From: Rhynchopus sp. YZ270_cl-10
Taxonomy: Eukaryota > Euglenozoa > Diplonemea > Diplonemida > Diplonemidae
Assembly: GCA_964035575.1 (NCBI GenBank)
Contig: OZ037867.1
Span: 744,001-808,000, forward strand
Length of the DNA: 64,000 bases
Direction: 5' to 3'
In this document: positions 20,435 through 46,843 of the stretch, one piece after another
How positions within the stretch are numbered: position 1 is the first letter of the stretch
Layout of the letters: each line of letters starts with the position of its first letter
Notes under the pieces: generated by a model
What the model was told of the DNA's origin: nothing
The model's database searches: none
Seen by the model: the letters and a program-made list of their open reading frames with translations, nothing else
Translations under genes and position numbers: made by a program

Positions 20435-20538
20435 CTTTTTCACCTCCCACCTCCCACGATGCATCATTTTCGTTCCACCAACAGGAAACGTTACCCCATT
20501 TCCCCCCCATACTCCTTTCCCTTTCCCCAACCCCAACC
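20435..20538 (+). promoter_or_regulatory. Conserved leader of effector gene A
   Basis: The 104 bp before the start codon, beginning CTTTTTCACCTCCCACC and ending CCAACCCCAACC, is nearly identical upstream of genes B (35028-35147) and C (39136-39256). It is pyrimidine-rich. CCACCAACAG inside it could be a 3' splice site. Conservation of non-coding leader along with the header exon suggests shared promoter or 5' UTR. Confidence 0.65.
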
Positions 20539-23500
20539 ATGCCTGATGGCGCTGTTCCCGATGACCCTGTAGCAAAGGCTGAGCGGGAGGTTGAAAGACT
20601 AAAGGCAGAGCAGAAGAAGCTGGGTGAGCAGATCACAGCCTGCGAAAGGTGCAAGAGGGGCAAGGTGACCGTCCATGATCTCGAAGAACTCGATGTCTAC
20701 GTGGACGATATCACTGACGCAACCACCCCTAATGGTAAGGAGAAGATCAACGCTAAGATCGTCGAGCTCAAGGAGAAGGAGAAGGTATGACCCTTGCTTT
20801 TCACCCCCCATTTTTTATTTTATCTTTTCTAGCATGACCCATTCGCAACATGTGTGTGTGTTTGATAACTAGTAGGGGTAATTCTTGCTCAGAATATGGC
20901 CCCAAAAAGGGGGGGGGGGGTGCTCACGTCACGGCAGACGCCCCCGAAGGGTCGTGACGGTGATGCAGTGGTTGAATGCCTTCCTGGGCCGCGTGCTTGA
21001 ATTGCGGGTGGCAGGAGTGGCAGCATTCGTTTAGGCTTTTTCTGTCCAAGTGGCAGGCCCCACAGCGCGTCAATCTGTGGCTCAGGCAGAAGTCCATCAC
21101 AAGCTCAAGGCCATCATCCTCTCTGTGGTGCAGGTTGCAGCAGGTTTCCACTACGGCTCGCACTTTCACACAGGACACACATCTGACTTTTCCGTGGCTC
21201 TCACATGAGATGATTTTGGCGTTCTTGCGGGCCCCCGCGGGGGCTGGTCGCGGGGGTCTGGACCTGAAGGCTGCAGTGTCCACCGCCGCTCTGCCCCGTG
21301 CCTGGCTGGATGCCTCCGTCCAGTTCGCGGCGTAGTGGTCCTGGGGGTAGAACCGTGCTGCCCATGCTTGGCTCTCCTCATACAGGATGGAGCTAGGGCC
21401 ATGCGGCTGTTCGCTGCGGATGTTGTGGGCGTTGAGGTGGCGGAGGACGGCCTCTGTCTTGGCGGAAAGCACAGCCCGTCGGTTTACCCCTTGCACCACT
21501 GTCCCTCCGAGCGCTGTCAGACTGGTGACACCTCCCTCTTTGCCTCTGGTCCAACTGTCGACTTGGACCACACTGCGTAGGTCACGGGTGAGGCTCTGCA
21601 GTGACAGTGCTTTGGCCCATACGCTCTTTTGGAAGAGAGGGTATTCTGCAGCTGCCTGGCTTAGCTGCTCCGCCCTCGCAACTTCGACCGTATCCATCGC
21701 TTCATTGCTGAGAGCGTCAGCGTCAGTGTTGAGGTTCCGCTTGACGTGGCGCCATTCGATGACGTAGCGGGGTTGCAGGTCTCGGATTTGGGCCCTGATG
21801 CGGTGGAGGAATGGCTGGAGGTTCTCTTTGCATGTTGTGTTCCCCTTGATGTGCTCGATGATCAGTTTAGAGTCACCGTATATGGTCGCCTGGCCACACA
21901 CTTCTGGGGGTAGGTCGCGAAGAAGGCAAAGGCCACTGCTAGCCCCTTCGTACTCGGCAACGTTGTTGCTTCTTGCAAATGGCAGGGGCGTAGCTACGGA
22001 TGCTGCCTTCACCCCGTCGATGTAGACAACTGCTCCTGCCCCTGCCCTCGCAAATACCGTACCGTTCTGTCTAGCACCACCATCAAAGAACACCTCTGTG
22101 CCCTGGCGGCCTTCTAGGGTGTTGCGCACAGTGCACACGGTTTGAGACGCACAGTATGGCTGGTATCTACGGTTCTTGATACCCGGCAAGGAAAGTCCCG
22201 TGGTCAGCTCGAAGTCTATTGCGAGCTCAATGTAGCTAACGGAGTGCTCCGATCCGTTATGCGCCCATTGCAGACTGTTTACCCAGTGGTTGGTTGCGTA
22301 CCATAGGTCTTCACTGTGTTTCCATATGGCCCCCACGTCTTGGTAACGCAGTGAAGGGAGTTGCACTCGCATGGGTTGGGGAGAAGACCATCCCCATGGG
22401 TAGTCAACCAGGCGGTGGTGGCGGGCCGACTCTGCTGGGCGGTCATCTCGAATCTGTCTTTGCCTGACTATCTCTATGAATAGCCTTTGCAGATTTCTCA
22501 CTAGTGCGATCCTCTCGTGGTCGTCTCGCGGGAGAACGTTGTCGTGGCAGTCGTGACGGTACCGTGGTGCCACCCCGCAAATGACCAGACAGTTCGGCCA
22601 GTCCGTCCTGTCCGCGGCTGCGACAGGGTGACGGCTGCGTACCTCCTCCCACGCACTGCATTCCCACCACATATGGCGAACTGTTTCGCGGGCTTCGGTC
22701 TCACAGTAAGGGCATCCGTCGGTGATGAGGCCGGATCTACCCGTTGTTGTCATTGCCCCTGCGATGATGGAGCGAAGGATGCCTTTCTGGTACCCGGTTA
22801 AGTTGCTCTCGGGGTCTTCCAGCAGGTGCCTGGTCACTCTGCCGTCAACTCCATGTTGGAGTCCGTCGTAGTCGCTCGATCGCTTGTTCGCAAGGGACCT
22901 CATTAGGGCATTCCGCAGTTTGTGACGTGCCTCGGCCTCGACTGACGTGGCTTGCTTTTCGGTGAGGGTGTCAACGTCCAGCAGGGTTTGGTCTCCTGAT
23001 TCGTTGGTGAATCTGACTTGGTTGGGGGCAACCCAGTCCCACCCCAAGGCGTTCAGTGATTCATTGAGGAGGAAGAACGGTCCGTAGGACAGGGAATCTC
23101 TGTGCTGCCACGCCACCGCACATAGATGTCTGCAGTTTTCTCTTCTCATCTGTTTGATCCACGCACGTAGCCTGCGAATGTGGAAGACCATCTCCGGGTC
23201 TAGTCGGTGGCCGTGCTGTAGGATGTGCATGACCGCCACCACAGCACGTCGCGAAGGCCCGGTCCAGACAGCTGCTGTGAAGTTTTTCTGAAGTTTTGCC
23301 CGTTTCTCCGGGGACAGGTAAGTCACGGACGCGCCATAATAGCACTTTGACCCCGCAGTCATTGCCGCTATGTGGTCTCGGTGGTTTACTGGTGTTGGGA
23401 GGGACCGCACCCTTCCCAGGTTCTTCACCGCGTTTGAGGACCTGTTGGAGATGCGATTGGAGACGGGCAAGGAGCTAAGGTTGGTGCCTGGTTGTGCGTG

Positions 23501-26500
23501 CTGCATGACCCCTGTGCTGTCGAAGCTGTTCTTGACAGGGAGGAACGTCGGAGGGTTGTGGCACATTAGCTCTCCGGTTTGCACGTTGATCACCTTGATT
23601 TCACATGGGCGCGTGCGGCACGTGGAGAAGGTGAGCGACTTTGAGACGCTGATGTCCATCTGGGTGTGGTGAGAGAAGATCACTGTTCGGTCAACGGCCA
23701 TCTGCTGGAGCTGGTGAGATGGGGCAGTGGCGTAGATGTCGTCAACGAATGATGTGGTCTCAGCCCCCTTGCTGTCGACCTCACGCATCCATACGCTGAT
23801 AACAATGTTTATTAGGATCACACTCAATGGGCACCCCTGCATGATACCATTGGTTGGTGTGAAGGGTTCTCCCACAGACCCGTTGCACCGGAAGTGTCTC
23901 TTCATCTTCACATAAGCCTCTCTGAGTACCGATAGCACCACTCCATTGAAGCCCAGTCTCGCTGCAAGGCACATCGCGATGTTGATGGGGACGGTATCAA
24001 AGCACTTCTTAAAGTCTATGGCTACTCCAAAGATGTGTTCACCGGTGAGGTGTGCGCATTCTAACTGTGCTGCGAGGTGCCAGTACAAGTCCTCCGTCCC
24101 GTGTTTGGGCCTGCACCCGTGCAATCCTGCAGGTGACAACTTGTCCAACCACGGAAAGGCGGATTGAGCACGTATCGATGCCCATATCCTATAGAGGACC
24201 GCCGTGATGGTGATGGGTCGTTGCGACAGGGGGTCTCCATCACTGTCTGGTTTCGGGATTAGCGGCACCAGTGCTTGCATGAGGGCTTCAGGCCACACGC
24301 CGTCCCGTTCGACGGCATTTAGGCATTCCACAAGGATGGCGATGATAGAGTCAGGTAGCTGTTCCACTTCGTGTGCTCTCCATCCGTGCATGCCTGGTGA
24401 GGTGGTACGCTTCATACGTTTGAGTGCCTTGTGTACATCTTCCACCTTGATGGGTTCACAAGTCATGTCTTCTGCCGCCGGTAGTACATCTTCGTACACT
24501 GCGAGGAAGGAGTCCCAACTTGGCTCGGGTGAGGAGGCGTATTTTTGGAATATACCACCCCATGCCTGGTTGTCTCTGAGGAGGGAGTCAACCTTGGCTG
24601 GGTCAGCCGTGAGAGTGCCATCTTGTTGCTTCATGAACGCTGCCGGCGTGGTGAAGCGGTCAGCCACATAGTCGAAGATGGCACCTTGACCTTTGCTCCC
24701 AACGTTTTGCATGGTGTGCTTCCAATGCAGACTGCGTTGTGCCTTCATGGCGGCAAAGGCTTCTCTCTGGGAGCCTTCGAGTTTCTCTAGGAGGCGGTGC
24801 AGGTAATCCACTCCGGGGTTTGGTACGAAGAGGGCCTCAGTGATCTCATCCCTCAGCGGGCCTCCTCGGAGTCGGGACAGCGCCTCCCACGCGTACCTCT
24901 CCCTGCGGGTCATTGCGTACGGCTTGTCCACAAGCAGTCTGGCCCTTCCTATTTGGAGAAGCGTGCGTAGGTTTCCCATGACAGCGTCCCTCGCCCTTGT
25001 TAGCTTTGAGGACGCCCCATTTTTGCTGCTGTGCTTTGTGGCGTGCCTGGCCGTCTTCACAAGGGATGTCTCGCTTCGCCCGCAGTAATCAGAATGTGGG
25101 GACGCTATGCTGTCCTCATGGAGGAGGAGTAGGAACTTCTCACCCACCTCTGCAAACTCAGCAAGCTTGCTTTCTCCTGATGCCTCGCTCCTGTCGTTTT
25201 TCTCCAGCTGGCTAGCAAATGCCACCGCAGTCTCTGGGGTGTTCCTTGGTCTATCCAGTGGGAAGGGCTTGGGGAGCACGCATCTCCGGGTGCGGCCAGA
25301 ATATACGTTTAGGTCGAGGGTGAAGGTGAGCGGTACATGTGTCGGGAAAGGGCAGTCGTCGAAGCTGGAGTCAACTGTCACTTTATAGATCGCTGGTGCT
25401 GCCGTCGCATTCGCCAGGCACATATCAATCCGCGTTCCGTTCGAGTTGGCCGTTCTGCAGGTGAAAGGTGGAGGGGTCCGTTGGGCAGCGGCTAGGCTCT
25501 CCGCCACATCAACCCATCTTCCAGATCTCTGCGCTGCCGCAAGAGTGACGCTATTGGAGGCGTTGCAGTTGAAGTCCCCGATGATGATGACTGGGACTGC
25601 GTGACCCAGGCCAGTTGCCATCTCCAATGCGTCCTTGATGAGTGCTTCTCGTTCGGCCGCCGCCTCCTGGCCTGCGTGTGCGTAGAGGGAGATGACGTGG
25701 AAGGCAGCCCCTGCGCCCACCGCAACAGCTGTGTGGACCACCCTCGTTGAATCGTGACAGCGTTTTTCCACCGGTGATTTAGGCGCGATGGTTTGCGCTA
25801 TCAGGCCACTCTTGGTCATTATCGCCACGCCTCCCGGTGCGATTTGCTGGCGCTCGCCTCCTCCCGTCTTTGCGAGGGCCTTTCCCCAGTGTACCTCCCT
25901 TCCTTTTGCGTGGAAGTATTGCCCATGTGTGCCCATGTGTTCCTTCCCGACCCTTGTCTCCTGTAAGGCAAGGATATCAGCCGGGAGGTCAGCCACGTCA
26001 CGGTGGTGCGTTTGCAGCGACGTTACGTTGATGGTGGTGATGGTTAGGGGTCTGGGTGCGGGTGTAGGCGGAGCTCGGGGTTGCCGTCTGTTCCTGTTCG
26101 CCGGAGACGGTGCCTCGAGGGGGAGAATGCCGTTCTGACAGGCTCGTAGACTTCGGAGGAGAGCCATCGGGATTCTGAGTATGTCATAATGCTCAGGTCT
26201 GTACGTTAGTCCCAGCACACGGTTCCGTTGGGCAGGGCAGCCCTCACGTCGCAGTGTGCCACGACTTCCCGTGCTGGCGTTGAGGACCCATACCTCCGCC
26301 TTGAGGATCGTCGCTGCCGCCTGCAAGCAGAGGTGGTCCCCGTAGGTGCCGTCACGGCTCATGTGGTCCAGGTATATGCTGAACGAGGTCGTGGCTGCTG
26401 CCGGCCCGGCTTCATACAGGTACCTGGACTCTTCGTTTGTGCGCAGGTGGCTGATGACGTCTCTGCGCAAGGAGGCCGCACATATACTCCCGGTGCATTG

Positions 26501-29500
26501 TGAGGCGAGCGCCCTAAAGAGGCAGTTGCCGTCCCCAGGGATCACGTGACGGGAGGTGTGCAAGCTCGCTGCTGTCCGGTCCAGCCACACATTATTCTCT
26601 GCTCTCTCTGCAATAGGGTCATCCCCCCCCGCCTCTCATATTTGTACGATGCTTCCCGCACGCGGACGCGTATCCAATCTTTGAGTCGATGCTCATCTCT
26701 GGAGATGCTGGCGTTGTCACAAGCGGGAGATATACTTTCGGAGGGACTGCTAGGGTCGCCGTCATGAGAGGTAGGGGGATGATATGCTGAGGGTGCTGGG
26801 GTTGAAAGGATGGAAGTCGGGATGGAATGGTGATCGTTGGAGAGGGAGGGTTTGAGTTGTGTGAGGGGTTCGTTTGAACAGCCTCATTGCCGATCCTGAT
26901 TGCGTTCACGGGGGACTGTTGCGAAGCTCGTGATGAGCGGCTGCCCTGCGGACTTGGTCCCCTTTGTCGCCGTCGGTCCCTTCCCTTTCCCTTCCTTCGC
27001 TTGTGGTTTCGGGCCCACGCTGTACGGCCCTGTCACGATCTTCTTAGCCCGGTTGAACGTATCGGCGATCTGTTCCATCCGTGTAGCCCGCGGCATTTCC
27101 CCCGCGCTCCGGGCGATGGACCTATCGTGGTTGTCGCTCGGGGCTGAGGTGGGCTTTTGCTGGGGGAGATTCGGCGGTGCCTCCTGCACCAGTGGCCTTC
27201 AACTGCTGATGCGACGCTGGTGGTTGCTGCTCAGCCCTATCATGTGTGCTGACGACGTGTTCCAGCGCCGCTTCCACCTCACCATTGTGTTTGCACTGGT
27301 AACGCATCGCCTGCTCCTGGTCCTCCTTTATCCGTTGCGCTTCCCCGTCCACGGCGGCGAACTTGATGGTGGCGGCGTCAACCAGGTTGGCCGTACCCCG
27401 CTGTGTTTGCATCAGGGCCTCCTTCGTTTTGGCTTCGAGAGCGTGGTTGCGCTGCCGGGCCAATGCCGCCTCCTCCTCTGCTTGACTCCGGAGGAGGTTG
27501 ACTTCGTTGCTGAGGCGGTTCGCTGCGGCTGTCAGCCTGTCGTCGGTCTGGTGCGCCTTCTTCAGGGCCTCTTCAGCCATGGCTGATACCACAACAGTAT
27601 CAGCTGCCGCCTGCTGCGTGCGCCTGCCCTGTTCTTGCAGCCCTTCCTGGAGGTGGGGAACAGCGGCCTCAGCTCTCTTGTGTGCCTCCACGAGCTGTTC
27701 AGCCGTGCTGCTGGCGGTGGTAGCTTTCGCCGCAACCTCGGTTGTCCACGCGTGCAACTTCACGTACGCGGACTGCAGCTCCTCCGCCTGCTGGGTCTGC
27801 TGGCTTGCGGTTCTGGTTGACGTGTCTTGTGCCTTGTCTTGTGCCTGCGTCACTTGCATCACCCGTTCCTCCAACAGCTCCATTCTGACCGCTAGTTGGG
27901 TGGCAGCGGGTGCGCCGGACTGCACTCCAGAAATGGCTTTGACGATGACCTGCTGCTCCTTCTTTTGGTTGTGGAGTTGAAGGCGGATGTCTTCCATTTC
28001 CTCCCTCTCAAAGGTAACGACCCTCAGATTAGTGGCGGTGGCTGCTTCGAGTGCATTGGTCGCCTGCTTTGCCGCGCGTTCCGCCTTCTTCTTCACTGCC
28101 TGCAGTTCCGTGGACACCCCCACCTGGTCAACGGCCAGCGCCTTGGTGGCCCTCACCTCTTCGCGGAGCTGCTCGAGGAGGAGCTGCGTGCCTTCTGCGT
28201 TCTCCACTGCCTTCTCCGTCATCTGCCTTGTCACGGCAGCTGCCTCCTCTTTCGCCCGCTGCAACGCAGCAGCAAACTCCTGCCGCAGCTGTGCAAGCTC
28301 AGGTGCAGGTGTAGTAGCGGGTGCAGTAGCGGGTGTAGCAGCGGGTGTAGCAGACACAGCAGGTGTAGCAGGCACAGCAGACACAGGTGCAGTAACCTCA
28401 CTATGCGCAGACGCAGCAGCAGTGGTGGTTGTGACTGGAACTGTAGGGGAGGGCAGTGGTGTGGCAGGTGTCGTGGGCGTTTGCTTGGTGCGGTCCTGGG
28501 CGATGACCTTCAGCACCGCGTGGAGGTGCGCGACGGGGACGACGACGTCCTTCGCGGTGTAGCCCCTACCGCCTCCCCGCCCACCTGTTCGCTTGACGCC
28601 TTGCAAGGCCGCCAACAGGGCCGCAATGGCGTCCTCGTGTGCGCGGTGCTCCTTCTTCAGCCGCTTTTCCTCCTCCCTCCTTTTCCGCTCGGCACGGATG
28701 GTGTCCATGTCCTGGATGGACATGCGGTGCCCGTTGATGTCGAGCTCTGTGTTGGGGGGCGGATGCGGGGCGGTGACCTGAAGGACGTCCGCCTTCCTGC
28801 CCGTCACCTCGGCTTCCCACTCCATCTGCTTCAGCATGGCCGTGGCCTGTGCCTGCAGGAAGCTGGAGGGGAAGGGGTGGATGCGGTATTCCCGCGGTGG
28901 TTGGAGTGTCAGCACGAGGGGGCGCACTACCTGCTGTCCGGCTTGTTCGCCGTCGAGAATCTCGACGTTGCCGGGGGATGCCGCATGGAGGCCAGCCGGG
29001 TTTTGCATTGTGATAGTGTTAATTTCCCTCGTTCCCCCCATGTGTGTGTGTGTTGGGGTTGCAAAGTAGGTGCTGGAGATGTACAATGTGGTGCAACGTT
29101 GTTGTTTCTAGTTTTGCATTTATTTTCCACACACTGACAGAAACTTGGCGATCTGCTGTTCGAGGTGCAGAAGGAGATCACAGCAAAGTCGCAGAGGTTG
29201 GAACAGCAGGGCCCAAGTATTAGTGAGGTATGCGTGTTTTTGTTCTTATTCACGTGCATTTGCAGGTGCTGAAGAACATTGTGCAAACTGCGAAAACCTG
29301 TGAAATGAAGGCTCCTCCTGAAATGGATGCAGTGCGGTTCGGTAGGGAAGGTTTCGACAAGGTCGTGCTGGATACTGTGGAAGAAGTATCAAATAAATGC
29401 AACATCATGCAGAACACACGGGCCCTGGCGATGGCGTGTGCATCTGGTGTGGGGAAGACTTACGCCACACAGACGGTGCGGTGGGGTTGCCAGCAGCAGA

Positions 29501-31374
29501 GCAAAGCGGACAGGTTTGAGGTGGTATCTGCATACCTTGGGTTTAACAGCGTGTCAAGGCTTACTTCGGGCGAGGAAGCCTACATGAAGGGTGGTGGTTC
29601 TGTGGAGGCAGTCGTTCTTCGTCGTCTCCTCGTGTGGCTTACCCGCGCTTATAAGTGCGCCAGAATTTCAGAACTGGATTCTGAGGGGACGTGTGTACAG
29701 CAACAGGTTGTGATGCCTCGTGTGACGAAGGAAGTTCTCAGTGTACTGGGCAGCTTGAGCGGACTGAAGGCCCTGCGTCAGAGCGTCACAGAGTGTTTGG
29801 CGAACCTAGCAAAAAAAGTCGCAGACGAAGAAGGGAAGAATCTGGTTGTCCTTGCAGTGGTGGATGAGGGGCAGTTCTTCGATGAGTTTGTTCCAAGGAA
29901 GGATGGAAAGAAGGTAGGGGCACGGTTGGCGCTGCAATGCCTTCGGAAACTGCAACTGGCAGTGCACGATAACTTAGTGTTGCTTCCAATATGCACTGGG
30001 ATTAATCCTGCTGTCAGTCTGGAAACGGAGACAGAGGGCGAAAACCGTGTCCTTGGTCAGGAGGAACAAGTCATCATGCTGCATAACGAGTGGGTGAAGT
30101 TCTGTGCTCATGTCATGGGGAAGGAGTTATTGTCTGAGCTGTCAGACCAGCAGTTTCAATGCTTTGCAGCACTCGCGTGGCCTCGGGCAAGGGCATTCCT
30201 CGATATGGATGTGCGCACGAGGTACGGTGTTTCGTCAGCTGCTGATAGCTTGCCGTGGGGGGACACGGATGATGAAAAGGTGGAGAAGCGTGCTCGATGG
30301 GTGCTCAAAGCTGCCGCGGATGAGCAATATCTGCCGATGAGTGATGTACCTGCAAACATGGTTCGTCTTGATGCCGTTGATGCCGTTGGCATGACACGCC
30401 CTATTCTCGACTTTGCCTCCCTCAGTAGCATCATGACGTGCCTTGGTCTAAACAAGACTACATTTCGTCTACCAGACAGTCTCTCTCTCAACGACTTGAA
30501 GGGCGGGGACTGGGGTTCATTCGAGAAGGTTGTGTTTAATTCACTAGCAATATTCGCAGGACTCTTTTACCACAAGCAACCAGACCCTGATACTTACCTG
30601 CCTTCGGAGCCAAGCACCAGCGTCTTACGCACTTGGATCCCAGGAGGCGCTGCCAACTTCGTGTCAGTCGATACCCTAGAAAATCCGCGAAGGCACCGGC
30701 ATCCCCACAACACTGCGAAGACTGCACTGAGCAAAGCCTTTATAGCGAAGCTGGAACTGTTGAAGGCCAAAGGCGACACTGTGCTGCTTCACTGTGGAGG
30801 CAAGTCTCCACTTGACTTCATTCTGATGAAGGTGGTGAAGGTGGAGGTGGCGAAGGTGAACAATGGAAAGACACAGACGATAGAGACACGGACGATTGCC
30901 GCAAGGTTTGCTGAGGCGAAGCACACGGAGAAGGACGACACAACCGTGACGAAAAAAAATCTTGAGCAAGAGCGAGACAGGATGACGGTGAAGGCATTTA
31001 ACACTTACAGTGTTATGGCGCGCTGTGCCGAAGAAGAAGAGTTGGACAGGAGAACAGCGGGCCATACCAAAGTAAAGCTCGAACCCTTCAAGGATGATCA
31101 CTTTCTGCTGGTGACGAATAAACGTGTAGGCAAGATGTCGGAGAAGGAGGCGGAGCGCATCATGAACCCTGATACAACTGAGTGGCTCCCAATGACCCAG
31201 GTGTTGTTTGGGGCGCTTCCCACCTCAAGTCAGTTGGGATCGCGTCCCATATGGCCAGCGCTCTCTCAGCTCTCGGAAATTCCCAGGCATACGTGGAACA
31301 CACCGCTGCCGCAGACTGGAGCTAGGATGACGAGATATGCACCTGTCTTGCGCAGACTCTGCAAACTCATTTAG
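20539..31374 (+). CDS. Effector gene A: header coiled coil + P-loop NTPase + PD-(D/E)xK-like nuclease
   Basis: Three exons: 20539-20784 (82 codons, MPDG header), 29141-29227 and 29266-31374, all joined in phase 0; about 813 residues. The first intron holds an 8.2-kb LINE on the opposite strand; the second is only 38 nt. The header is a charged coiled coil without signal peptide. The NTPase has Walker A SGVGKT at about residue 175, where the usual first Gly is Cys, and Walker [11 protein letters not shown] at about 305-314. Near residues 614-665 LDFIL and later FAEAK fit the D and ExK of a PD-(D/E)xK nuclease; gene C keeps both. The layout matches Crinkler/RHS-type effectors, which act on nucleic acids of hosts, rivals or transposons. 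Target and activity are inference. Exon 2 ([13 protein letters not shown]) is diverged from that of B-D. Confidence 0.8.
20924..26590 (-). CDS. LINE ORF2: OTU protease, APE endonuclease, reverse transcriptase, RNase H
   Basis: 1888 residues on the minus strand. Order: an OTU-type cysteine protease (about 12-145; [10 protein letters not shown] with Cys23, and His134 in PEHYDIL); an apurinic-type endonuclease (about 180-425; LQETR, GDFNCN, final HVPLTF); reverse transcriptase (about 760-1030; [20 protein letters not shown] and catalytic FVDD near 948); a CCHC-like zinc knuckle (about 1290-1310, CPYC...H....C); RNase HI (about 1495-1640; [26 protein letters not shown]); and a Cys/His-rich C-terminus (about 1795-1888). 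The frame is open throughout and the catalytic residues named are present. The protein nicks DNA and copies its RNA at the nick. The OTU domain may cleave ubiquitin or the polyprotein; its role in LINEs is not settled. Confidence 0.92.
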   Translation of the reverse strand: MWLDRTAASLHTSRHVIPGDGNCLFRALASQCTGSICAASLRRDVISHLRTNEESRYLYEAGPAAATTSFSIYLDHMSRDGTYGDHLCLQAAATILKAEVWVLNASTGSRGTLRREGCPAQRNRVLGLTYRPEHYDILRIPMALLRSLRACQNGILPLEAPSPANRNRRQPRAPPTPAPRPLTITTINVTSLQTHHRDVADLPADILALQETRVGKEHMGTHGQYFHAKGREVHWGKALAKTGGGERQQIAPGGVAIMTKSGLIAQTIAPKSPVEKRCHDSTRVVHTAVAVGAGAAFHVISLYAHAGQEAAAEREALIKDALEMATGLGHAVPVIIIGDFNCNASNSVTLAAAQRSGRWVDVAESLAAAQRTPPPFTCRTANSNGTRIDMCLANATAAPAIYKVTVDSSFDDCPFPTHVPLTFTLDLNVYSGRTRRCVLPKPFPLDRPRNTPETAVAFASQLEKNDRSEASGESKLAEFAEVGEKFLLLLHEDSIASPHSDYCGRSETSLVKTARHATKHSSKNGASSKLTRARDAVMGNLRTLLQIGRARLLVDKPYAMTRRERYAWEALSRLRGGPLRDEITEALFVPNPGVDYLHRLLEKLEGSQREAFAAMKAQRSLHWKHTMQNVGSKGQGAIFDYVADRFTTPAAFMKQQDGTLTADPAKVDSLLRDNQAWGGIFQKYASSPEPSWDSFLAVYEDVLPAAEDMTCEPIKVEDVHKALKRMKRTTSPGMHGWRAHEVEQLPDSIIAILVECLNAVERDGVWPEALMQALVPLIPKPDSDGDPLSQRPITITAVLYRIWASIRAQSAFPWLDKLSPAGLHGCRPKHGTEDLYWHLAAQLECAHLTGEHIFGVAIDFKKCFDTVPINIAMCLAARLGFNGVVLSVLREAYVKMKRHFRCNGSVGEPFTPTNGIMQGCPLSVILINIVISVWMREVDSKGAETTSFVDDIYATAPSHQLQQMAVDRTVIFSHHTQMDISVSKSLTFSTCRTRPCEIKVINVQTGELMCHNPPTFLPVKNSFDSTGVMQHAQPGTNLSSLPVSNRISNRSSNAVKNLGRVRSLPTPVNHRDHIAAMTAGSKCYYGASVTYLSPEKRAKLQKNFTAAVWTGPSRRAVVAVMHILQHGHRLDPEMVFHIRRLRAWIKQMRRENCRHLCAVAWQHRDSLSYGPFFLLNESLNALGWDWVAPNQVRFTNESGDQTLLDVDTLTEKQATSVEAEARHKLRNALMRSLANKRSSDYDGLQHGVDGRVTRHLLEDPESNLTGYQKGILRSIIAGAMTTTGRSGLITDGCPYCETEARETVRHMWWECSAWEEVRSRHPVAAADRTDWPNCLVICGVAPRYRHDCHDNVLPRDDHERIALVRNLQRLFIEIVRQRQIRDDRPAESARHHRLVDYPWGWSSPQPMRVQLPSLRYQDVGAIWKHSEDLWYATNHWVNSLQWAHNGSEHSVSYIELAIDFELTTGLSLPGIKNRRYQPYCASQTVCTVRNTLEGRQGTEVFFDGGARQNGTVFARAGAGAVVYIDGVKAASVATPLPFARSNNVAEYEGASSGLCLLRDLPPEVCGQATIYGDSKLIIEHIKGNTTCKENLQPFLHRIRAQIRDLQPRYVIEWRHVKRNLNTDADALSNEAMDTVEVARAEQLSQAAAEYPLFQKSVWAKALSLQSLTRDLRSVVQVDSWTRGKEGGVTSLTALGGTVVQGVNRRAVLSAKTEAVLRHLNAHNIRSEQPHGPSSILYEESQAWAARFYPQDHYAANWTEASSQARGRAAVDTAAFRSRPPRPAPAGARKNAKIISCESHGKVRCVSCVKVRAVVETCCNLHHREDDGLELVMDFCLSHRLTRCGACHLDRKSLNECCHSCHPQFKHAAQEGIQPLHHRHDPSGASAVT
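26591..27121 (-). other. LINE inter-ORF segment with overlapping small frames
   Basis: Between ORF1 and ORF2, frame 27189-26884 (101 codons) overlaps the end of ORF1 in another frame, is rich in Lys, Pro and Thr and contains QPLITSFA, which fits the PCNA-interacting motif Qxx(I/L/M)xxF(A/F). A third frame, 26909-26619 (96 codons), follows. They may be extra small ORFs, or the true end of ORF1 reached by frameshift. Confidence 0.4.
27122..29008 (-). CDS. LINE ORF1: Ala-rich coiled-coil protein
   Basis: About 628 residues from the first Met that lies wholly inside the element (MQNPAGLH, codon 29008-29006); an upstream Met overlaps the target duplication. The N-terminal 100 residues look globular. 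Then comes a Lys/Arg/Glu helix, a Thr/Ala/Pro-rich spacer with repeated TPA units (about residues 190-255), and long helices rich in Ala, Gln and Glu. It sits upstream of ORF2 on the same strand where RNA-binding ORF1 proteins normally sit. No zinc knuckle or RRM was recognised, so the RNA-chaperone role is inferred from position and coiled coils. Confidence 0.75.
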   Translation of the reverse strand: MQNPAGLHAASPGNVEILDGEQAGQQVVRPLVLTLQPPREYRIHPFPSSFLQAQATAMLKQMEWEAEVTGRKADVLQVTAPHPPPNTELDINGHRMSIQDMDTIRAERKRREEEKRLKKEHRAHEDAIAALLAALQGVKRTGGRGGGRGYTAKDVVVPVAHLHAVLKVIAQDRTKQTPTTPATPLPSPTVPVTTTTAAASAHSEVTAPVSAVPATPAVSATPAATPATAPATTPAPELAQLRQEFAAALQRAKEEAAAVTRQMTEKAVENAEGTQLLLEQLREEVRATKALAVDQVGVSTELQAVKKKAERAAKQATNALEAATATNLRVVTFEREEMEDIRLQLHNQKKEQQVIVKAISGVQSGAPAATQLAVRMELLEERVMQVTQAQDKAQDTSTRTASQQTQQAEELQSAYVKLHAWTTEVAAKATTASSTAEQLVEAHKRAEAAVPHLQEGLQEQGRRTQQAAADTVVVSAMAEEALKKAHQTDDRLTAAANRLSNEVNLLRSQAEEEAALARQRNHALEAKTKEALMQTQRGTANLVDAATIKFAAVDGEAQRIKEDQEQAMRYQCKHNGEVEAALEHVVSTHDRAEQQPPASHQQLKATGAGGTAESPPAKAHLSPERQPR

Positions 31375-31376
31375 AT

Positions 31377-31616
<240 letters not shown>

Positions 31617-31655
31617 TGGGGAGTCGGGGTCTGGGGAGTCGGGAGTCGGGAGTCG

Positions 31656-31940
31656 GCTTATTTACACCCTTGCCCCCCTCCCCCTAACTTCACTACAATT
31701 TTTTGCACGGCGGAGTCCGTACACCCTAGGCTCCGTACATTTTACGGACCCTCAAGTACGTACCCGGCTCAGTAATTACTGAGCCTAGGGTCCGTAATTA
31801 CGTGGTCTAAGGTGTGAAATCACTGTTCGGATGTGTGACTGCTGGTCAGAAAAGCCCTGGGAGCAAAGCGGGAGTGGCACCCAGGTACACTGGTATACAA
31901 GGTTGTAAACTGTAAACGGTAAACTGTAATATGTACACAT
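31656..31940. other. Spacer with palindrome between gene A and GST copy 1
   Basis: A perfect 20-bp palindrome GGCTCAGTAATTACTGAGCC lies at 31766-31785, next to CCTAGGCTCCGTA and its inverse. Part of the stretch (about 31720-31775) recurs at 45322-45372. No gene is seen. Confidence 0.6.
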
Positions 31941-34464: not shown

Positions 34465-34844
34465 CGCTCGACTGTACAGCCACTCAAAGAGCGCATTTAG
34501 GATGGCGTCTGTTCTGTTGTGGAACGAGGCGTATTTTTTATAAAAGTTTCTTGTGCCATTTGTGTTGCGAGCAGTCCCTTTTCATTGTTGCTGTTTAATT
34601 CGCAGCTTTCTTCACACTTTTTCTTCTTCCCCTAGATGTGTGCAGCGCATTCATCTTTATCTTTTTTCCTCTGAAATCTTGCAGTTTTTTGGGACAGAAT
34701 GTTGACGTCGCGCACACTGCCGACTGTACCCATTCCAAAACAGTTTCCGAAACATCCCTCAGTCAAGAGCTATATGTGTTGAAAGCAAATGAACAGATGT
34801 TGCACACCACCTCCCAGTCTCGCCTTGTTCTCCTCCACCTCCAG

Positions 34845-35020
34845 AAGACGCTGAAGGACCAGATCGATGCATTGGAGGGATTCCGTGCACGTGCACCAGA
34901 CTATGACGTCAGCAAGTTGAAGCAGCTTCGTCTGTGGGATTTTACGGACAGTGACCGTGACACCCTTGCAGGCAAGCAGAAGATCTCCGACAAGATCTCC
35001 AAGCTCGAGGAGCAGCTTAA
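34845..35020 (+). pseudogene. Stray D-type header fragment
   Basis: Nearly identical to the header exon of gene D (about 43322-43490) but placed just upstream of the leader of gene B, with no effector end of its own. It is a fossil of an exchange between header types, or conceivably an alternative upstream exon of B. Confidence 0.7.
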
Positions 35021-35027: not shown

Positions 35028-35147
35028 CCCAGTCCCTTTTACTCTTTTTCACCTCCCACCTCCCACGATGCATCATTTTCATTCCACCAACAGGAAACGT
35101 TACCCCATTTCCCCCCCATACTCCTTTCCCTTTCCCCAACCCCAACC
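35028..35147 (+). promoter_or_regulatory. Conserved leader of effector gene B
   Basis: CCCAGTCCCTTTTACTC to CCAACCCCAACC, shared almost base for base with gene C and, from CTTTTTCACC on, with gene A. Ends at the start codon. Confidence 0.65.
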
Positions 35148-37689: not shown

Positions 37690-38525
37690 GCGAGTTGGGG
37701 CTTTCACCTAAGTTCGTTTCTCTTCCTGGCACGGTGAAGCTTCTGGAGTTTAACTCGGATCATCACGGCTTCGAGGCTGTCGCCTTCCAGACTTTGGGTC
37801 TTTTCCTGGGATTCTTCTATCACAAAAGGCAAAACGACGACTACTTACGGCAGAGAGCCCTACGCAGACACTCCGGACATGGTTTCCACCTTCTGTGGGG
37901 GAGGTTAAGCGTGTGCAGAAACTGGATGACTCACAGGTCCAGGCTCACCCCTTCGACACACAAAGCTCCCAGAATCGCACAGCACTCAGCATCGATTTTG
38001 GGAACTCGCTTTCGAATCTGGTCAAAGACGGCAACACGATCCTGCTGCATTGCGGTGAATCGGCAGCGATGGACTTCATTTTGGTGACGTTGGAGAAGGA
38101 GGAGGAGAAGCATATACTACAGATCCGCTTGGCAGACGCGAAGTTCAAAAATGACCCAGCCAATACTAGTGTCACAAGTCACAAGTCACAAGAAGGAGAT
38201 GTCCAAGATGCTCGAGAAGGCAAAGGGCGTCCACGAATCACTATGTGCTATTCTCAAAAAGCTCGAGACTGCGGAGAATCTCAAGCATCTGAAGAACTGC
38301 AGTGTGGCTGAATGGAACAAAAAGAGTTTCCTTCACATCACCAACTCCGAGCTCGAAGGTGACTGTGTGATGAGTCCTCTGACGACAACGAGGGAGCCAA
38401 TGACGACACTTCTGTACAATGGTACTGGAAAGGAAGAGGTGATTGAGGTCAAGGCATTACCACCCGCAACTCTGTTGTCATCGCGTCCTGCAAAAAGAGG
38501 ACTGCACATATCCATCTCGGCAGTC
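37690..38525 (+). pseudogene. Fossil of an A/C-type effector end
   Basis: Related to the C-terminal half of genes A and C, including the FYHK segment, the LLHCG segment and the nuclease-core region. It is truncated at the front and broken in a few places, and is more diverged than A is from C, so it is an older copy. It is followed by the same 3' flank as gene C. Confidence 0.75.
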
Positions 38526-39135: not shown

Positions 39136-39256
39136 CCCCAGTCCCTTTTACTCTTTTTCACCTCCCACCTCCCACGATGCATCATTTTCATTCCACCAAC
39201 AGGAAACGTTACCCCATTTCCCCCCCATACTCCTTTCCCTTTCCCCAACCCCAACC
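39136..39256 (+). promoter_or_regulatory. Conserved leader of effector gene C
   Basis: Same 120-bp pyrimidine-rich leader as gene B, ending at the MPDG start codon. Confidence 0.65.
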
Positions 39257-42200
39257 ATGCCTGATGGCGCTGTTCCCGATGACCCTGTAGCAAAGGCTGA
39301 GCGGACGGTTGAACGACTAAAGGCAGAGCAGAAGAAGCTGGGTGAGCAGATCACAGCCTGCGAAAGGTGCAAGAGGGGCAAGGTGACCGTCCATGATCTC
39401 GAAGAACTCGATGTCTACGTGGACGATATCACTGACGCAACCACCCCTAATGGCAAGGAGAAGATCAACGCCAAGATCGTCGAGCTCAAGGAGAAGGAGA
39501 AGGTATGACCCTTGCTTTTCACACCTATTTTTTATTTTATGTGTTTCCCCTACCCAAAAAAAAAAAAAAGGCTTTAGTAGAAGATACCAAATGTTCACAC
39601 GAACATCGGTTTCATAACTTTCACCCACCATATAAAGGGGAATTACTGAAGATGTCTACCCTTTTGAATACTACTGTATAATTCTTAAGACTGAAACAGG
39701 GTAAAAGTTCGAAACCAATCTACTGAAAGTTTCAATTTATGCAAGGAAACAGTTTATTTTTCCCCTTTCACATTTTTGCAACAAGGAATTTAAAAAAAGA
39801 TGGGTTGTTGTTGTTTTTTTATACACTTCCCTAATGCTTTCAAATTTTATTTGAAAGTATATGAATTTGTTATTTTATCTTTTCTAGCATGACCCATTCG
39901 CAACATGTGTGTTGGGGTTGCAATTGTCGGCACTGGAGATATACAGTGTGGTGCAACGTTGTTGTTATTTTGTTGTTTCTAGTTTAGTGCATTCGCTTTC
40001 CACACACTTACAGAAAAAGAGTGCAGAGTTGCTGATTGCGCGCGAGGACTTGATGAATGTGAGGGCTCAGCAGGGCCCAAGTATTAGTGAGGTATGCGTG
40101 TTTTTGTTCTTATTCACGTGCATTTGCAGGTGCTGAAGAACATTGTACAAACTGCGAAAACCTGTGAAATGAAGGCTCCTCCTGAAATGGATGCAGTGCG
40201 GTTCGGTAGGGAGGGTTTCGACAAGGTCGTGCTGGATACTGTGGAAGAAGTATCAAATAAATGCAACATCATGCAGAACACACGGGCCCTGGTGATGGCG
40301 TGTGCATCTGGTGTGGGGAAGACTTACGCCACACAGACGGTGCGGTGGGGTTGCCAGCAGCAGAGCAAAGCGGACAGGTTTGAGGTGGTATCTGCATACC
40401 TTGGGTTTAACAGCGTGTCAAGGCTTACTTGGGGCGAGGAATACTACATGAAGGGTGGTGGTTCTGTGGAGGCAGTCGTTCTATGTCGTCTCCTCGTGTG
40501 GCTTACTCGCGCTTATAAGTGTGCCAGCATTTCAGAACTGGATTCTAAGGGGACATGTGTACAGCAACAGGTTGTGATGCCTGATGTGACGGAGGAAGCC
40601 CTCAGTGTACTGGGCAGCGTGAGCGGACTGAAGGCCCTGCGTCAGAGCGTCACAGAGTGTTTGGCGAACCTAGCAAAAAAAGTCGCAGACGAAGAAGGGA
40701 AGAAGCTGGTTTTCCTTGCAGTGGTGGATGAGGGGCAGTTCTTCGATGAGTTTGTTCCAAGGGAGGATGGAAAGAAGGTAGGGGCACGGTTGGCGCTGCA
40801 ATGCCTTCGGGAACTGCAACTGGCAGTGCACGATAACTTAGTGTTGCTCCCAATATGCACTGGGATTAATCCTGCTGTCACTCTGGAAACGCGGACAGAG
40901 GGCGAAAACCGTGTCCTTGGTAAGGAGGAACAAATCTTCATGCTGCATAACGAGTGGGTGAAGTTCTGTGCTCATGTCATGGGGAAGGAGTTATTGTCTG
41001 AGCTGTCAGACCAGCAGTTTCAATGCTTTGCAGCACTCGCGTGGCCTCGGGCAAGGGAATTCCTCAATATGGATGTGCGCACGAAGTACGGTGTTTCGTC
41101 AGGTGCTGCTCGCTTGCCGCGGGGGGACACGGATGATGAAAAGGTGGAGAAGCGTGCTCGACGGGTGCTCAAAGTTGCTGTTGACTTGCCGTGGGGGGAC
41201 ACGGATGCTGAAAAGCGGGAGAAGCGTGTTCGACGGGTGCTCAAAGCTGCTGCGGATAAGCAATATCTGCCGATGAGTGATGTACCTGCAAACATGGTTC
41301 GTCTTGATGCTGTTGGCGAGACACGCCCTATTCTCGACTTTGCCTCCCTCAGTAGCATCATGAACTGCCTTGGTCTAAACAAGACTACATTTCGTCTACC
41401 AGACAGTGTCTCTCTCAACGACTTGAAGGGCGGGGACTGGGGTTCATTCGAGAAGGTTGTGTTTAATTCACTAGCAATATTCGCAGGACTCTTTTACCAC
41501 AAGCAACCAGACCCTGATACTTACCTGCCTTCGAAGCCAAGCACCGGCGTCTTACGCACTTGGATCCCAGGAGGCGCTGCCAACTTCGTGTCAGTCGATA
41601 CCCTAGAAAATCCGCGAAGGCACCGTCATCCCCACAACACTGCGAAGACTGCACTGAGCGAAGCCTTTATAACGAAGCTGGAACTGTTGAAGGCCAAAGG
41701 CGACACTGTGCTGCTTCACTGTGGAGGCAAGTCTCCACTTGACTTCATTCTGATGAAGGTGGTGAAGGTGGAGGTGGCGGAGGTGGTGAAGGTGGCGGTG
41801 GCGGAGGTGGCGAAGGTGAACAAGGGAAAGACACAGACGATAGAGACACGGACGATTGCAGCGAGGTTTGCTGAGGCGAATCACACAGACAAGGACAAGA
41901 CAACCGTGACGAAAGAAAGTCTTGGGCAAGAGCGAGACGATATGACGGTGAAGGCATTACAAACTTACAATGTTATGGAGCGCTGTACCAAAAAAATAGC
42001 GTTCGACAAGATGGTGTGGGGAGACAGGAGTCCAGCGGGCCATACCAAAGTAAAGCTCGAACCCTTCAAAGATGATCACTTTCTGCTGGTGACGAATAAA
42101 CGTGTAGGCAAGATGTCGGCGAAGGAGGCGAAGCGCATCATGAACCCTGATACAACTGAGTGGCTCCCAATGACCCAGGTGTTGTTTGGGGCGCCTCCCA

Positions 42201-42352: not shown

Positions 42353-42384
42353 ATGACGAACTCCTCAAGAGTAGGACGGTAGGG

Positions 42385-43254: not shown

Positions 43255-44876
43255 ATGCCTGATGGTGATGACTTGCCTGCTGCAGTCACTGCTGATCGGA
43301 GAGTAACTAACCTGGAGGGCGAGCAGAAGACGCTGAAGGACCAGATCGATGCATTGGAGGGATTCCGTGCACGTGCACCAGACTATGACGTCAGCAAGTT
43401 GAAGAAGCTTCGTCTGTGGGATTTTACGGACAGTGACCGTGACACCCTTGAAGGCAAGCAGAAGATCGCCGACAAGATCGCCGAGCTCAAGAAAGAGAAG
43501 GAGGTATGACACTTGCTTTCCACACACATGTTTATGTTATCTTTCTAACATGGCCCATTCGCAGCATGTGTTTCATGTAGAACTCTTTGCAGTTTCTATT
43601 CACTTAACCTTTGGGTTGAGTCATTACATGTGGTTGTACTGTCTGTGTGGCGGAGGGAACCTCGGACCTTTTGGAGGCATGGCGAGTAGTCTACTTGCTT
43701 TCCACACCTATTTTATTTTATCTTTCCAGCATGACCCATTCGCAACCATGTGTGTTGGGGTTGCAATTGTCGGCACTGGAGATATACAGTGTGGTGCAAC
43801 GTTGTTGTTATTTTGTTGTTTCTAGTTTATTGCATTCACTTTCCACACACTTACAGAAAAAGAGTGCAGAGTTGCTGATTGCGCGCGAGGACTTGATGAA
43901 TGTGAGGGCTCAGCAGACGTTGACGATGGAAGCTCAACTGCAGAAGGGTTACGGCAGAGGTGTGGTCAACTCCATGATACCCGAGTATCTTCTTCAGGTC
44001 AAAGTAGAAAATGGAGCTAAGTGGCTGTTGCTAAGGAAAACTATGTACCTTCATGCAGAGCTGCAGGGTGCGTTCTACGGTTGGTTTTATTACAGCAAGA
44101 ACGACCATGGTGTGGTCAACGAGACCAGTGACTTTAATTTTGTGCTCTACTTCTTGTCGACGCAACAGATGCAAAATATGGAAACTACTGTGCGTGCTTG
44201 GGGACAACAGCGTAATGTAGCTATCATGGCAGAGGCTAGTCAGCGAGGCGACTCTTATGGGTTCTACGACCGGTTTGGAGCGGTTTCTGATGATCCTAAA
44301 AGGGTCCACGCGAGTCACTATGAGGAAAACGGGTCACCCGACGGACGTGGCTGGAGTGAGGTGCGTGAAGACTATTCAGAGAGCAGCGCTACAACCAGGG
44401 TTAGCGAGGAACAGGTGGATTATGAATTTGTTCTTGCTGACCGTGTGGGGTCCCATGTGGCCCTAAGTTGTCACATCCTTCCTGCTGCTCAGTGTACTGG
44501 TGTTCGCGCGAAGTGTAATAAAGATCCCAACAACCGCATCATACTTGATGGGAATCTACACAAATTCTACGATCAAAGTAAACCAGAAGTGTCATTCTAC
44601 TGCGAGGATGCGGAAGACGCGTTCGATGAGCATGATCCGCAGAGCGATACCAGAAAAGAAGTGCGTCTTGTAGCTTTTTTCAGAACTGTTCAAATTGCTG
44701 ATAAATGGTTTAACATTGGGTTTCGTGAGGGTACCCATAATGTTAGTAGTCATGAAATTCACTTCAAGATTCATCACAAGGACCCGAAAGCATTTGTGCA
44801 ATACCTGCAGGCTCGTCATAATGAAAATATGGAGAAGATGGGTTATGCGGGAGGAGCTCCGCAGCTTTCTCAATGA
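43255..44876 (+). CDS. Effector gene D: header + HNH_2-like nuclease
   Basis: Two exons, 43255-43503 and 43857-44876, phase 0; about 422 residues. The header is a second subtype (MPDGDDLP...EGEQKTLKDQI, ending ELKKEKEV) clearly homologous to the A-C header. Exon 2 begins with the same KKSAELLIAREDL block, and a new end starts after AQQ. That end contains CHILPAAQC at about 287-295 and, 12 residues on, NNRIILDGNLHKFYD at about 307-321, which fits the HNH_2 pattern (H-I-x-P, then N-x-x-x-L-x-x-x-L-H-x-x-F-D). No P-loop is present, so unlike A-C this is a direct header-nuclease fusion. HNH enzymes cut DNA; the target here is unknown. Confidence 0.78.
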
Positions 44877-45131
44877 TACACATACCAGTAGTGTCAAGTT
44901 CGTTGCTTTTTCTGCTCTCGGGTTGGGAAGGGGTCGGGTCGTAATAAATACAAAGCAACATTTCATTAAAGTTAAGGCCGTAGTTGCCTTGGTCAAACAA
45001 AACCAACGTATCCTTGGGTACCTATTAATGCATCAAAGTTTTCAAAAAACGTGGAGATCACACAGGTGGTGACTACACGTTGTCAATTTTTCAAAAACAA
45101 AAAAATATAACTATTTATTGCTGTAAAATGG
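44877..45131. other. Short spacer after gene D
   Basis: Contains a weak member of the GTGGAGAT...TTTTTCAAAAA motif family (about 45050-45100) and otherwise nothing recognised. Confidence 0.4.
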
Positions 45132-45320
45132 GCGAAGCGCATCATGAACCCTGATACAACTAAGTGGCTCCCAATGACCCAGGTGTTGTTTGGGGCGCTT
45201 CCCACCTCAAGTCAGTTGGGATCGCGTCCCATATGGCCAGCGCTCTCTCAGCTCTCGCAAATTCCCAGGCATACGTGGAGCACACCGCTGCCGCAGACTG
45301 GAGCTAGGATGACGAGATGC
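45132..45320 (+). pseudogene. Fossil 3' end of an A/C-type effector
   Basis: About 190 bp matching the last 60 codons of genes A (31149-31334) and C, without anything upstream. Together with 45322-45372 it shows that the GST copy 2 block arrived attached to the end of an A-type gene. Confidence 0.8.
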
Positions 45321-45497
45321 GTACCTGGGCTCCGTACATTTTACGGACCCTCAAGTACGTACCCGGCTCAGGATCAGGATGCGAGTGACGGCGCAGATTC
45401 AAGAGACTCAAGAGGAACAGTCAGAGGATTCTGACACCTTCCCTCCAGACGTTCTCTACCTGTTGCTATTGTAAACTGTAAAGTGTAATATATACAT

Positions 45498-46843
45498 GGA
45501 TGGTAGTCGGTCCGAGCAGGCTGTGCGCTAACTTTTCGGAAATTGCTCGAAAAATGAAAATCAGGTCCAAAAAAATGTACCTACGGGAAGTTGAAGTGCG
45601 TGGACGCGCGTATTTTGCGTGTTTTTAAAGTAAGAGAAAGTCGAATGGAGTGGGAACGTAGTGAGAGCGCAGAAGAGAATAAGAAATGCAGGAAAAATAG
45701 ACAACGAGGAAAAACAAAGAGATTTTGACAATACTTTTTACACACGTCCTCCACACAGTTCCTTCCTTCAAACCGTGAATGGTAACTACGCCAGTGGTGT
45801 TTGTAATGTCTGTTGTCCTCCACACCATTACAGGGGTAAATGCTTTTTGCGTGCGGACCCACCCGGAGGTGGTTGGGGCGGACTCTGTGTGCTCCCTCTT
45901 GTCGTTGGCCTGACTCCCCTCACCATCCTTCTGCCACTGAACACTTTACACAGACCTACTACACAACACACACTCTCACAATGTCTGCCCCAGCAACACC
46001 GAAGCCGACCCTTCCCGAGTCGTATGTCGTGCCCGAGGTGTGGGTGGAGCCTGCTGCTGCAGCAGGGCCGTTCGGAGGCATCAACAAACCCACGGCAGGT
46101 GCACGCGAGGAGGAGGCTCTGCCAAAGGGGGAGCACCCGCTGCAGCTGTACTCGCTTGGCACGCCGAACGGCATCAAGGTGACGATCCTTCTTGAGGAGC
46201 TTGGTGTTGAGTACGATGCGTGGAAGATCTCCATCATGGGGAAGCAGTTCACAAGCGGGTTTGTGGCGGCGAACCCAAACTCGAAGATCCCTGCGATGTA
46301 CGACTACGGCGTGGAGGACGGCAGTGGCGAGCCGCTGCGTGTCTTCGAGTCTGGGTCGATCCTTGTCTACCTTGCGGAGAAGTACGGGAAGTTCCTCCCC
46401 CCTGTGTCGGACATCCGCAAGCGCACAGAGGTGCTGAACTGGGTGATGTGGCAGATGGGGGGAGCGCCCTTCATTGGAGGCGGGTTTGGGCACTTCTACA
46501 AGTACGCACCTGTGCACATTGAGTACGCTGTGAACAGGTACTCGATGGAGACGAAGCGCCAGCTGGACGTGCTGGACAAGCAGCTTGAAGGGAAGGACTT
46601 TGTGTGTGGAGAGTACAGCATTGCCGACATGGCCATCTACCCGTGGATCAAATGCATCGACGTTGGCTACAACGCTGCCAAGTTCCTCGAGCTCGACTCC
46701 TACAAGAACGTGGCACGTTGGATGGAGCTCCTTCAGAAGCGTTCTGCTGTGCGCCGTGGCTCGCGTGTCAACGGCTTCTCTGACAACGCTGTTGCTGAGA
46801 GGCACAGCAAGGACGACTTCAAGCCTGAGGACTACTAGACACT
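45498..46843. repeat. Segmental duplication, copy 2 (carries GST)
   Basis: Colinear with 31941-33286. Lacks the (GGGGTC)40 array that precedes copy 1. Confidence 0.9.
45981..46838 (+). CDS. yghU-like: Glutathione S-transferase, YghU/YfcG (Nu) type, copy 2
   Basis: Encodes the same 285-residue protein as copy 1. The only CDS differences seen are two synonymous changes (an Asp codon GAC/GAT near 46217 and a Pro codon CCG/CCA near 46276). The leader differs at a few sites. So near an identity means a recent duplication or ongoing gene conversion; the 3' UTR is unrelated, so the two copies could differ in regulation. Confidence 0.93.
   Translation: MSAPATPKPTLPESYVVPEVWVEPAAAAGPFGGINKPTAGAREEEALPKGEHPLQLYSLGTPNGIKVTILLEELGVEYDAWKISIMGKQFTSGFVAANPNSKIPAMYDYGVEDGSGEPLRVFESGSILVYLAEKYGKFLPPVSDIRKRTEVLNWVMWQMGGAPFIGGGFGHFYKYAPVHIEYAVNRYSMETKRQLDVLDKQLEGKDFVCGEYSIADMAIYPWIKCIDVGYNAAKFLELDSYKNVARWMELLQKRSAVRRGSRVNGFSDNAVAERHSKDDFKPEDY

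Follow-up and report, generated by a model that had tools for sequence, protein, structure and literature searches.

The Crinkler-RHS-type (CR) proteins combine an N-terminal header, in which no signal peptide is seen, with ends that carry a P-loop NTPase and a candidate restriction endonuclease (REase) or HNH domain, the two parts meeting at a sharp modular joint, and they have been proposed to be NTPase-controlled nucleases that act on nucleic acids (PMC5289972). This study concerns genes A to D, an array in a window of 64,000 nucleotides of the genome of an apparently marine single-celled flagellate, the diplonemid Rhynchopus sp. YZ270_cl-10 (C35:744001-808000, C35 being contig OZ037867.1; the genome comprises 152.4 Mb on 126 contigs). 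The four genes resemble CR proteins in this architecture, their REase-like and HNH domains being candidates, with a modular header joined to differing toxin-like ends, and the best reading of their predicted architecture is a lineage-specific version of this known kind of family. They differ in having a header of their own and a shared C-terminal tail, and in the joint itself, which is here an intron plus about 60 bp of exon and in Crinklers is the coding motif HVLVxxP (PMC5289972).

The RHS genes of Trypanosoma are likewise a large, recombining mosaic family, and one member of the present family has a retroelement inside it, but recombination of RHS genes has been described in coding regions, and the word 'intron' is absent from the available text of that paper (PMC7563717). 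Massive exon shuffling between introns of the same phase, with a LINE-like helper proposed, has been reported for the leucine-rich repeat (LRR) genes of Tetrahymena, although what is shuffled there are repeated 90-bp LRR exons and not unrelated enzymatic ends (PMC6564038). The SmPoMuc mucin genes of Schistosoma have repeat exons and flanking introns that are >93% identical within and between genes, and are described as subject to concerted evolution and ectopic recombination, with conserved introns assisting the exchange, but they encode surface mucin repeats rather than header and toxin modules (PMC2576457).

Genes A to D are probably members of a large family of Crinkler/RHS-like conflict proteins in diplonemids, a family that would owe its diversity to exon shuffling by way of an intron homogenised among its copies. 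The predicted proteins would consist of a header, a linker, a body (NTPase plus nuclease, or HNH) and sometimes a shared tail. These parts occur in differing combinations, with near-identical tracts that stop in or near one shared phase-0 intron, and misaligned recombination or gene conversion between copies of this intron would swap phase-0 header exons and ends while keeping the frame. The conserved intron is the likely joint for the swapped pieces. A preliminary description of the array had overlooked this role of the intron, as well as the older ends that lie displaced behind two of the genes, B and D. The features of the array are listed below by window position; splice sites and gene models were inferred from open frames and motifs, and the PD-(D/E)xK and QxK motifs, the helices and the check for secretion signals were read by eye.

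20539..20784, + strand: gene A header exon, 82 codons, type H1 (open frame, header search)
20785..29140, + strand: gene A intron 1, split by a retrotransposon; homologous to the other copies at 20793-20857 and 29047-29140
29141..29227, + strand: gene A exon 2, 29 codons, ending GPSISE
29266..31374, + strand: gene A exon 3, with P-loop NTPase, candidate PD-(D/E)xK domain and shared C-terminal tail
34842..35009, + strand: fragment of a D-type (H2) header exon, directly 5' of the B leader; 96.4% identical to 43324-43491
35148..35393, + strand: gene B header exon, H1
35394..35727, + strand: gene B intron 1 (the shared intron)
35728..37680, + strand: gene B exon 2, with KKSAELLIAR linker, second P-loop NTPase type, candidate QxK nuclease domain and KRKH-containing tail
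37692..38510, + strand: remnant, C-terminal half of another NTPase/nuclease end, 44% identical to P0027
39257..39502, + strand: gene C header exon, H1
39503..40013, + strand: gene C intron 1, of which the 3' part is the shared intron
40014..40091, + strand: gene C exon 2, 26 codons
40130..42352, + strand: gene C exon 3, an A-like end with asparagine at the putative catalytic lysine
43255..43503, + strand: gene D header exon, type H2
43504..43856, + strand: gene D intron 1, the full shared intron
43857..44876, + strand: gene D exon 2, with KKSAELLIAR linker and HNH_2-like end
45135..45335, + strand: behind D, a leftover C-terminal piece from an end of the A/C type; corresponds to residues 704-772 of the 778 of P0021, 74% identical

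In each gene a header exon of 82-83 codons is followed by a phase-0 intron. The headers of B, C and D are 95%, 99% and 43% identical to that of A, and A, B and C also have a common 5' leader; judged by eye, the header would form two helices and is coiled-coil-like. Exon 2 opens with KKSAELLIAR in B, C and D, and starts differently in A. Genes A and C have a small exon 2, a second intron and a long exon 3, whereas B and D have a single long exon 2. The third exons of A and C are 91% identical, and no similarity was detected between the ends of A and B (z 0.0), of B and C (z 1.0), or of D and an A/C-type relative (z -0.5). The preliminary description of four genes with a header exon, a phase-0 intron conserved in its 3' part, the KKSAELLIA start in B to D and three unrelated types of end is therefore confirmed, and the extent of the phenomenon is larger than first described; its proposal of a lineage-specific header in a CR-style architecture with exchangeable ends is likewise supported.

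The tracts shared between the genes have sharp limits. Positions 20435-20823 of A are 97.7% identical to 39153-39540 of C, and 20435-20861 of A are 95.6% identical to 35044-35467 of B, both tracts covering leader, header and intron start. At the other side of the intron, 35585-35785 of B match 39870-40071 of C at 98.0%, and 39870-40073 of C match 43713-43916 of D at 97.6%, in both cases across the 3' intron and 58-60 bp of exon 2. Past this exon tract there is no homology among these ends, and B and D share no DNA beyond position 35785. Older pieces lie beside the present genes. The D-type header fragment directly 5' of the B leader is 168 bp long, the remnant behind B starts 12 positions after the end of the stop codon and belongs to a different NTPase end, and the A/C-type piece behind D is followed by a GST-like gene. 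The simplest reading of these remnants is that new ends displaced older ones in place. The GST-like gene occurs in two copies that are 98.98% identical, at 31911-33285 behind A and 45470-46842 behind D, and the pair is evidently a recent local duplication.

The array had been taken for a local cluster in the course of diversifying, which proves too narrow a view, as the family is genome-wide and headers, ends and tails have been swapped. Searches of the whole genome with the header of A gave 41 places at E<=10 and 23 at E<=0.001, and those with the header of D gave 38 and 25; at the stricter level, headers lie on at least 10 contigs. Match segments to the ends, with exons and fragments counted separately, numbered 15 for D, 54 for B and 108 for C. 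Exon 2 of D is 63% identical to Diplonema papillatum DIPPA_50233, and a model built from 16 headers of the present genome recognised the D. papillatum protein by its N-terminus (E=1.4e-9; the best reversed decoy scored E=1.3, and eight unrelated loci gave no forward match), so the possibility that the header exists only at this locus fails. At some loci (L016/L067, L019/L062 and L021/L059) two or more header exons stand in succession, each followed by the shared intron.

Headers and ends are often uncoupled. Among the 210 pairs formed by 21 genes, both parts were alike in 14, only the header in 3, only the end in 37 and neither in 156 (thresholds were a header score >=0.6 of self and an end z >=8, and genes with two headers were represented by the first). 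Close headers precede unrelated ends in A and B, in B and C, and in D and C78:195149. Conversely, similar ends follow unrelated headers when C90:743450 is compared with three of its neighbours, and C78:195149 with four genes on C78 and one on C31. A copy of the B end at C35:140-142 kb is 91% identical over the protein. This copy (L087) shows 98% DNA identity to B over the 400 bp compared, from inside the intron onward, and no header was detected in the 1.0 kb before that tract by blastn against the window or by eye.

Three further observations concern the distribution and form of the family. Five header places with equal scores and a spacing of about 4.64 kb make up a recent tandem array at C19:1623879-1642641, and a dense cluster at 187-294 kb of C78 includes blocks repeated about 32 kb apart. 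Two headers (L012 and L035) have an additional C2H2-like stretch, read by eye, ahead of the usual header, which suggests that this may be a further exchangeable part.

The inferred introns of the family start with GTATG and finish with CAG, in agreement with reports for several diplonemids; GTATG is the commonest intron start in three of six diplonemid species according to PMC12621601. The 3' 145 bp of intron 1 of C are 96.6% identical to D, and the introns of B and D are 90.6% identical over their full length. Used as a DNA query, the D intron gave at least 49 matches at 81-100% identity, 40 of the 188 candidates having been scored. A 25-base intron motif, GCATGACCCATTCGCAACATGTGTG, was found with up to three mismatches at 169 sites (70 + 99), while its reversed control gave none, and the 100 of these 169 sites that were listed fall into 75 introns, distributed over 23 contigs. 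In a set of eighteen complete or almost complete copies, three of which start 26-79 positions late, the mean pairwise identity is 0.900 (0.843-0.991), a value that is biased upward because the copies were chosen for matching the D or B introns. Their flanks are far more diverse, with mean identities of 0.337 for headers, 0.272 for exon-2 starts and 0.113 for ends, and in 59 of the 105 pairs with headers the headers were <30% identical while the introns were >85% identical.

In some pairs the histories of intron and exons part, and they do so in both directions. Between D and C90:743450 the HNH ends are saturated with synonymous differences (pS 0.81), while their preceding introns differ by 11%, and for C90:743450 and C2:1515130 the corresponding values are pS 0.76 and 7%. 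The reverse is seen between D and C78:195149, with a synonymous distance (dS) of 0.05 for the header and an intron distance of 0.18. In matrix tests, header distances were not significantly related to those of the 5' half of the intron (rho 0.18, P 0.10), whereas end distances were related to both the 5' half (rho 0.23, P 0.009) and the 3' half (rho 0.29, P 0.0035); the ends are still weakly tied to their own intron, and the headers not significantly so. Within the intron, the incompatibility of sites grows with distance, being 0.179 for sites up to 10 bp apart and 0.389 for those more than 200 bp apart. A test of the pairwise homoplasy index (PHI) type gave P=0.0003, the lowest value that 3000 permutations allow; the Hudson-Kaplan count was 23, a figure inflated by repeated mutation. 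The null was represented by 60 simulations without recombination on a maximum-likelihood tree with uneven site rates, in which mean incompatibility was 0.225 versus 0.309 observed, and the largest shift was -0.063 versus -0.119 observed.

The commonest ends carry a P-loop NTPase at the level of motifs, in which the residues of Walker A and Walker B hardly vary. When 20 A/C-type sequences are aligned, the Walker A stretch SGVGKT and the stretch DEGQ are nearly invariant, and further downstream E441 and D538 are invariant; the lysine of (D/E)xK is kept in 17 of the 19 sequences that cover the site. In 14 B-type sequences GMGKT is invariant and VDEL nearly so, and QxK is present in four of the ten that cover the site (B, P0006, P0013 and P0017). 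Among ten D-type sequences, read by eye, the N of H-N-H is invariant, the first H is nearly so, and the last H is altered in two.

Database comparisons placed these ends less firmly. No Pfam family scored above its cut-off in A, B, C or D, and the NTPase ends matched AAA families only below cut-off (best E 2.5e-4). Against HNH_2 (PF13391) the D end scored E=0.041, and its relatives P0003 and P0002 came to 20.8 and 19.6 bits, the family cut-off being 21 (E=3.6e-4 for one relative); the Pfam search gave no HNH_2 match in the relatives P0004, L077, L081, L079 and L074. Of the nuclease assignments in the preliminary description, that of HNH_2 came to just below its cut-off in one relative and was weaker in D itself. 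Profile searches against PDB returned nothing useful. The columns E...D...(D/E)xK that would place an REase-superfamily domain behind the NTPase were read by eye and had no profile match. All NCBIfam scores were far below cut-off, including that of D, whose weak match was to a family of putative restriction endonucleases (E 0.044; 12.9 bits, with a cut-off of 53), and PADLOC returned nothing for A, B and D and weak PtuA matches (E 0.0012) for the P-loop piece of L086. No phage relatives were found for D, the sole gene searched.

Positive selection on the NTPase ends was considered and rejected, as pN/pS (the nonsynonymous to synonymous ratio) was 1.1-2.1 in 14 of 15 pairs with none significant (A versus C 1.25, P 0.51). 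The HNH ends on C90 gave pN/pS of 0.48-0.75, with seven of ten pairs at P<0.05 for constraint.

The last 50 or so residues (SRPVWPA...RRICKxI) form a tail shared by A/C-type bodies, by the B-type sequences P0006 and P0008 and by a body on C13, and this tail is the sole profile-level match between the A/C and B types (48 columns, hhalign probability 40%, E 2.9e-4). Seventeen places match the C end in the tail region only, and 12 of these, with frames of 727-748 aa, form an array at C13:558-630 kb, of which the one copy examined has a P-loop and a QxK motif by eye. Other bodies, read by eye and with Pfam support below cut-off at best, also stand behind the shared intron. They comprise this C13 body with its P-loop and QxK (by eye), a second HNH-like type read by eye and without Pfam support (L035, L036), a body with a weak DUF6826 match that resembles a nuclease plus kinase (L038, E=6.5e-4), and two more P-loop types (L086, AAA_19 at E=2.5e-4; L088, by eye).

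The headers of known families are a separate matter. The headers of B and D matched no Pfam family at E<=10, including the Ubl-type Crinkler header PF20147, which is one among several headers of CR proteins and for which the whole genome held two matches below cut-off elsewhere, and control genomes were likewise without a match. The two lie at C46:388562 (20.6 bits) and C31:1381676 (18.9 bits), the cut-off being 24.6. The RHSP domain (PF07999) had no match in the genome, nor in A to D, and control genomes also gave none.

Several observations weigh against diversification by shuffling through the intron, or against the proposed nature of the products. The intron set was picked by its match to the D or B introns, which raises its identity, and two header loci (L022 and L031) have no intron match. 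Intron and synonymous distances are alike among the close copies on C78, and the decoupled pairs given above are extremes. The links found in the matrix tests mean that the breakpoint is not assignable to one half of the intron and that uncoupling is incomplete, and the null simulations themselves gave P<0.05 in 6 of 60 cases and P<=0.0025 in 1 of 60. As for the ends, the putative catalytic lysine is, by eye, replaced in gene C (by N), which is predicted to lack nuclease activity, and in P0021 (by Q), and the B-type site reads QxQ in five of ten sequences and QxR in one. The nuclease assignments are motif readings by eye together with sub-threshold Pfam scores, the PDB profile searches being empty or giving chance matches, and diversifying selection was not significant. 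Finally, conserved introns can be regulatory.

Where such proteins would act can be approached from the families that they resemble. In biological conflict their bodies would act on nucleic acids as NTP-dependent nucleases, within the cell that makes them or in another. Export as effectors that enter prey or host cells is a serious possibility, if not the favoured one: oomycetes are reported to secrete CRN proteins, which are then translocated into the cells of the host (PMC5289972), and the KRKH tail of B could, by eye, be a nuclear signal. Against export, diplonemids are termed mostly free-living in PMC8061765, and the RHS proteins of T. cruzi are located in the nucleus according to PMC7563717. 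No signal peptide was seen by eye in the headers, and for this reason the predicted proteins are regarded, by a slight lean, as serving defence of the own cell rather than export into another.

It is also conceivable, if rather unlikely, that the intron is conserved for a job of its own, as a promoter, silencer or splicing element, and that swaps of headers and ends are incidental. Plasmodium var genes similarly have variable exons around a more conserved intron, differing in that they have a single architecture, and their intron is known as a regulatory element. The interior of the shared intron is its most conserved part, at 0.945-0.955 versus 0.81-0.82 at the edges (18 copies), as such a job might require. 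The divergence of intron and exon histories in both directions in some pairs, and the recombination inside the intron, speak against this explanation, as do two rejected candidates for the function. A coding leader was rejected because the reading frame that leads from the ATG of the motif to exon 2 stays open in just 8 of 22 different copies, and in each of the window genes A to D it contains a stop and does not join exon 2 in frame; for a structured RNA, the covariation term was -0.05, 3 of 64 predicted pairs had a change kept on both sides, and Rfam gave no match in the window. A regulatory role can, in any case, coexist with recombination.

That the intron is an introner-like mobile element placed in many unrelated genes is very improbable. 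Its copies are many and dispersed, and 37 of the 75 listed introns have no header match nearby, but the eight introns sampled (L084-L086 and L088-L092) all had header-like or linker exons by eye. The header model confirmed four of the eight (E<=9.4e-5); L084 gave E=1.1, and L088, L091 and L092 had no match. This sample covered seven of the 37 introns without a header match plus one beside a weak header match. Plain tandem duplication with fast divergence and no shuffling fits the GST-like copies and the repeated C78 blocks, but is the least credible alternative, as tracts of 96-98% identity end abruptly at unrelated sequence, near-identical headers have unrelated ends and similar ends have unrelated headers.

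The retrotransposon within gene A is a long interspersed nuclear element (LINE) of about 8.2 kb.

20860..29045 (approximate edges in a GT run), - strand: LINE-type retrotransposon in intron 1 of A; ORF2 with OTU, endonuclease, reverse transcriptase (RT) and RNase H domains, and an ORF1-like frame at 27125-29107

The four domains lie in an open frame of 1903 residues, the OTU-protease domain sitting ahead of the LINE endonuclease. The insertion point is the GT run within the conserved motif of the intron, and the element is flanked on either side by ATGTGTGTGT. The idea that it recurs as a guest in the family introns was rejected, since in the loci compared the element matches the gene A copy only (L009, L056). 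Near the cluster there are long tandem repeats of short units, 7, 6 and 8 bases in length and with a match of 96-100%, at 19862-20029, 31377-31656 and 50403-50641.

No report of this family or its intron was found in the open-licence literature, which was mostly screened as listings, and the words 'rhs', 'nuclease' and 'ntpase' do not occur in the main text of the paper on the D. papillatum genome (PMC10161547). Diplonemids are the sister group of kinetoplastids (PMC12699882). Kinetoplastids carry the puzzling RHS family, for which the diplonemid family is a point of comparison beyond the parasitic trypanosomes. A concrete and testable answer to how modular toxin-like families may exchange parts without loss of frame is provided by the homogenised intron, with the scars of exchange visible at one locus. 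A stronger proposal, put forward tentatively, is that the intron serves as a platform for recombination and is maintained as such, a cassette joint whose copies are kept alike genome-wide so that headers, ends and tails can repeatedly recombine in frame. If this were true, the family would be a standing combinatorial library of conflict proteins in a free-living protist, possibly active today.

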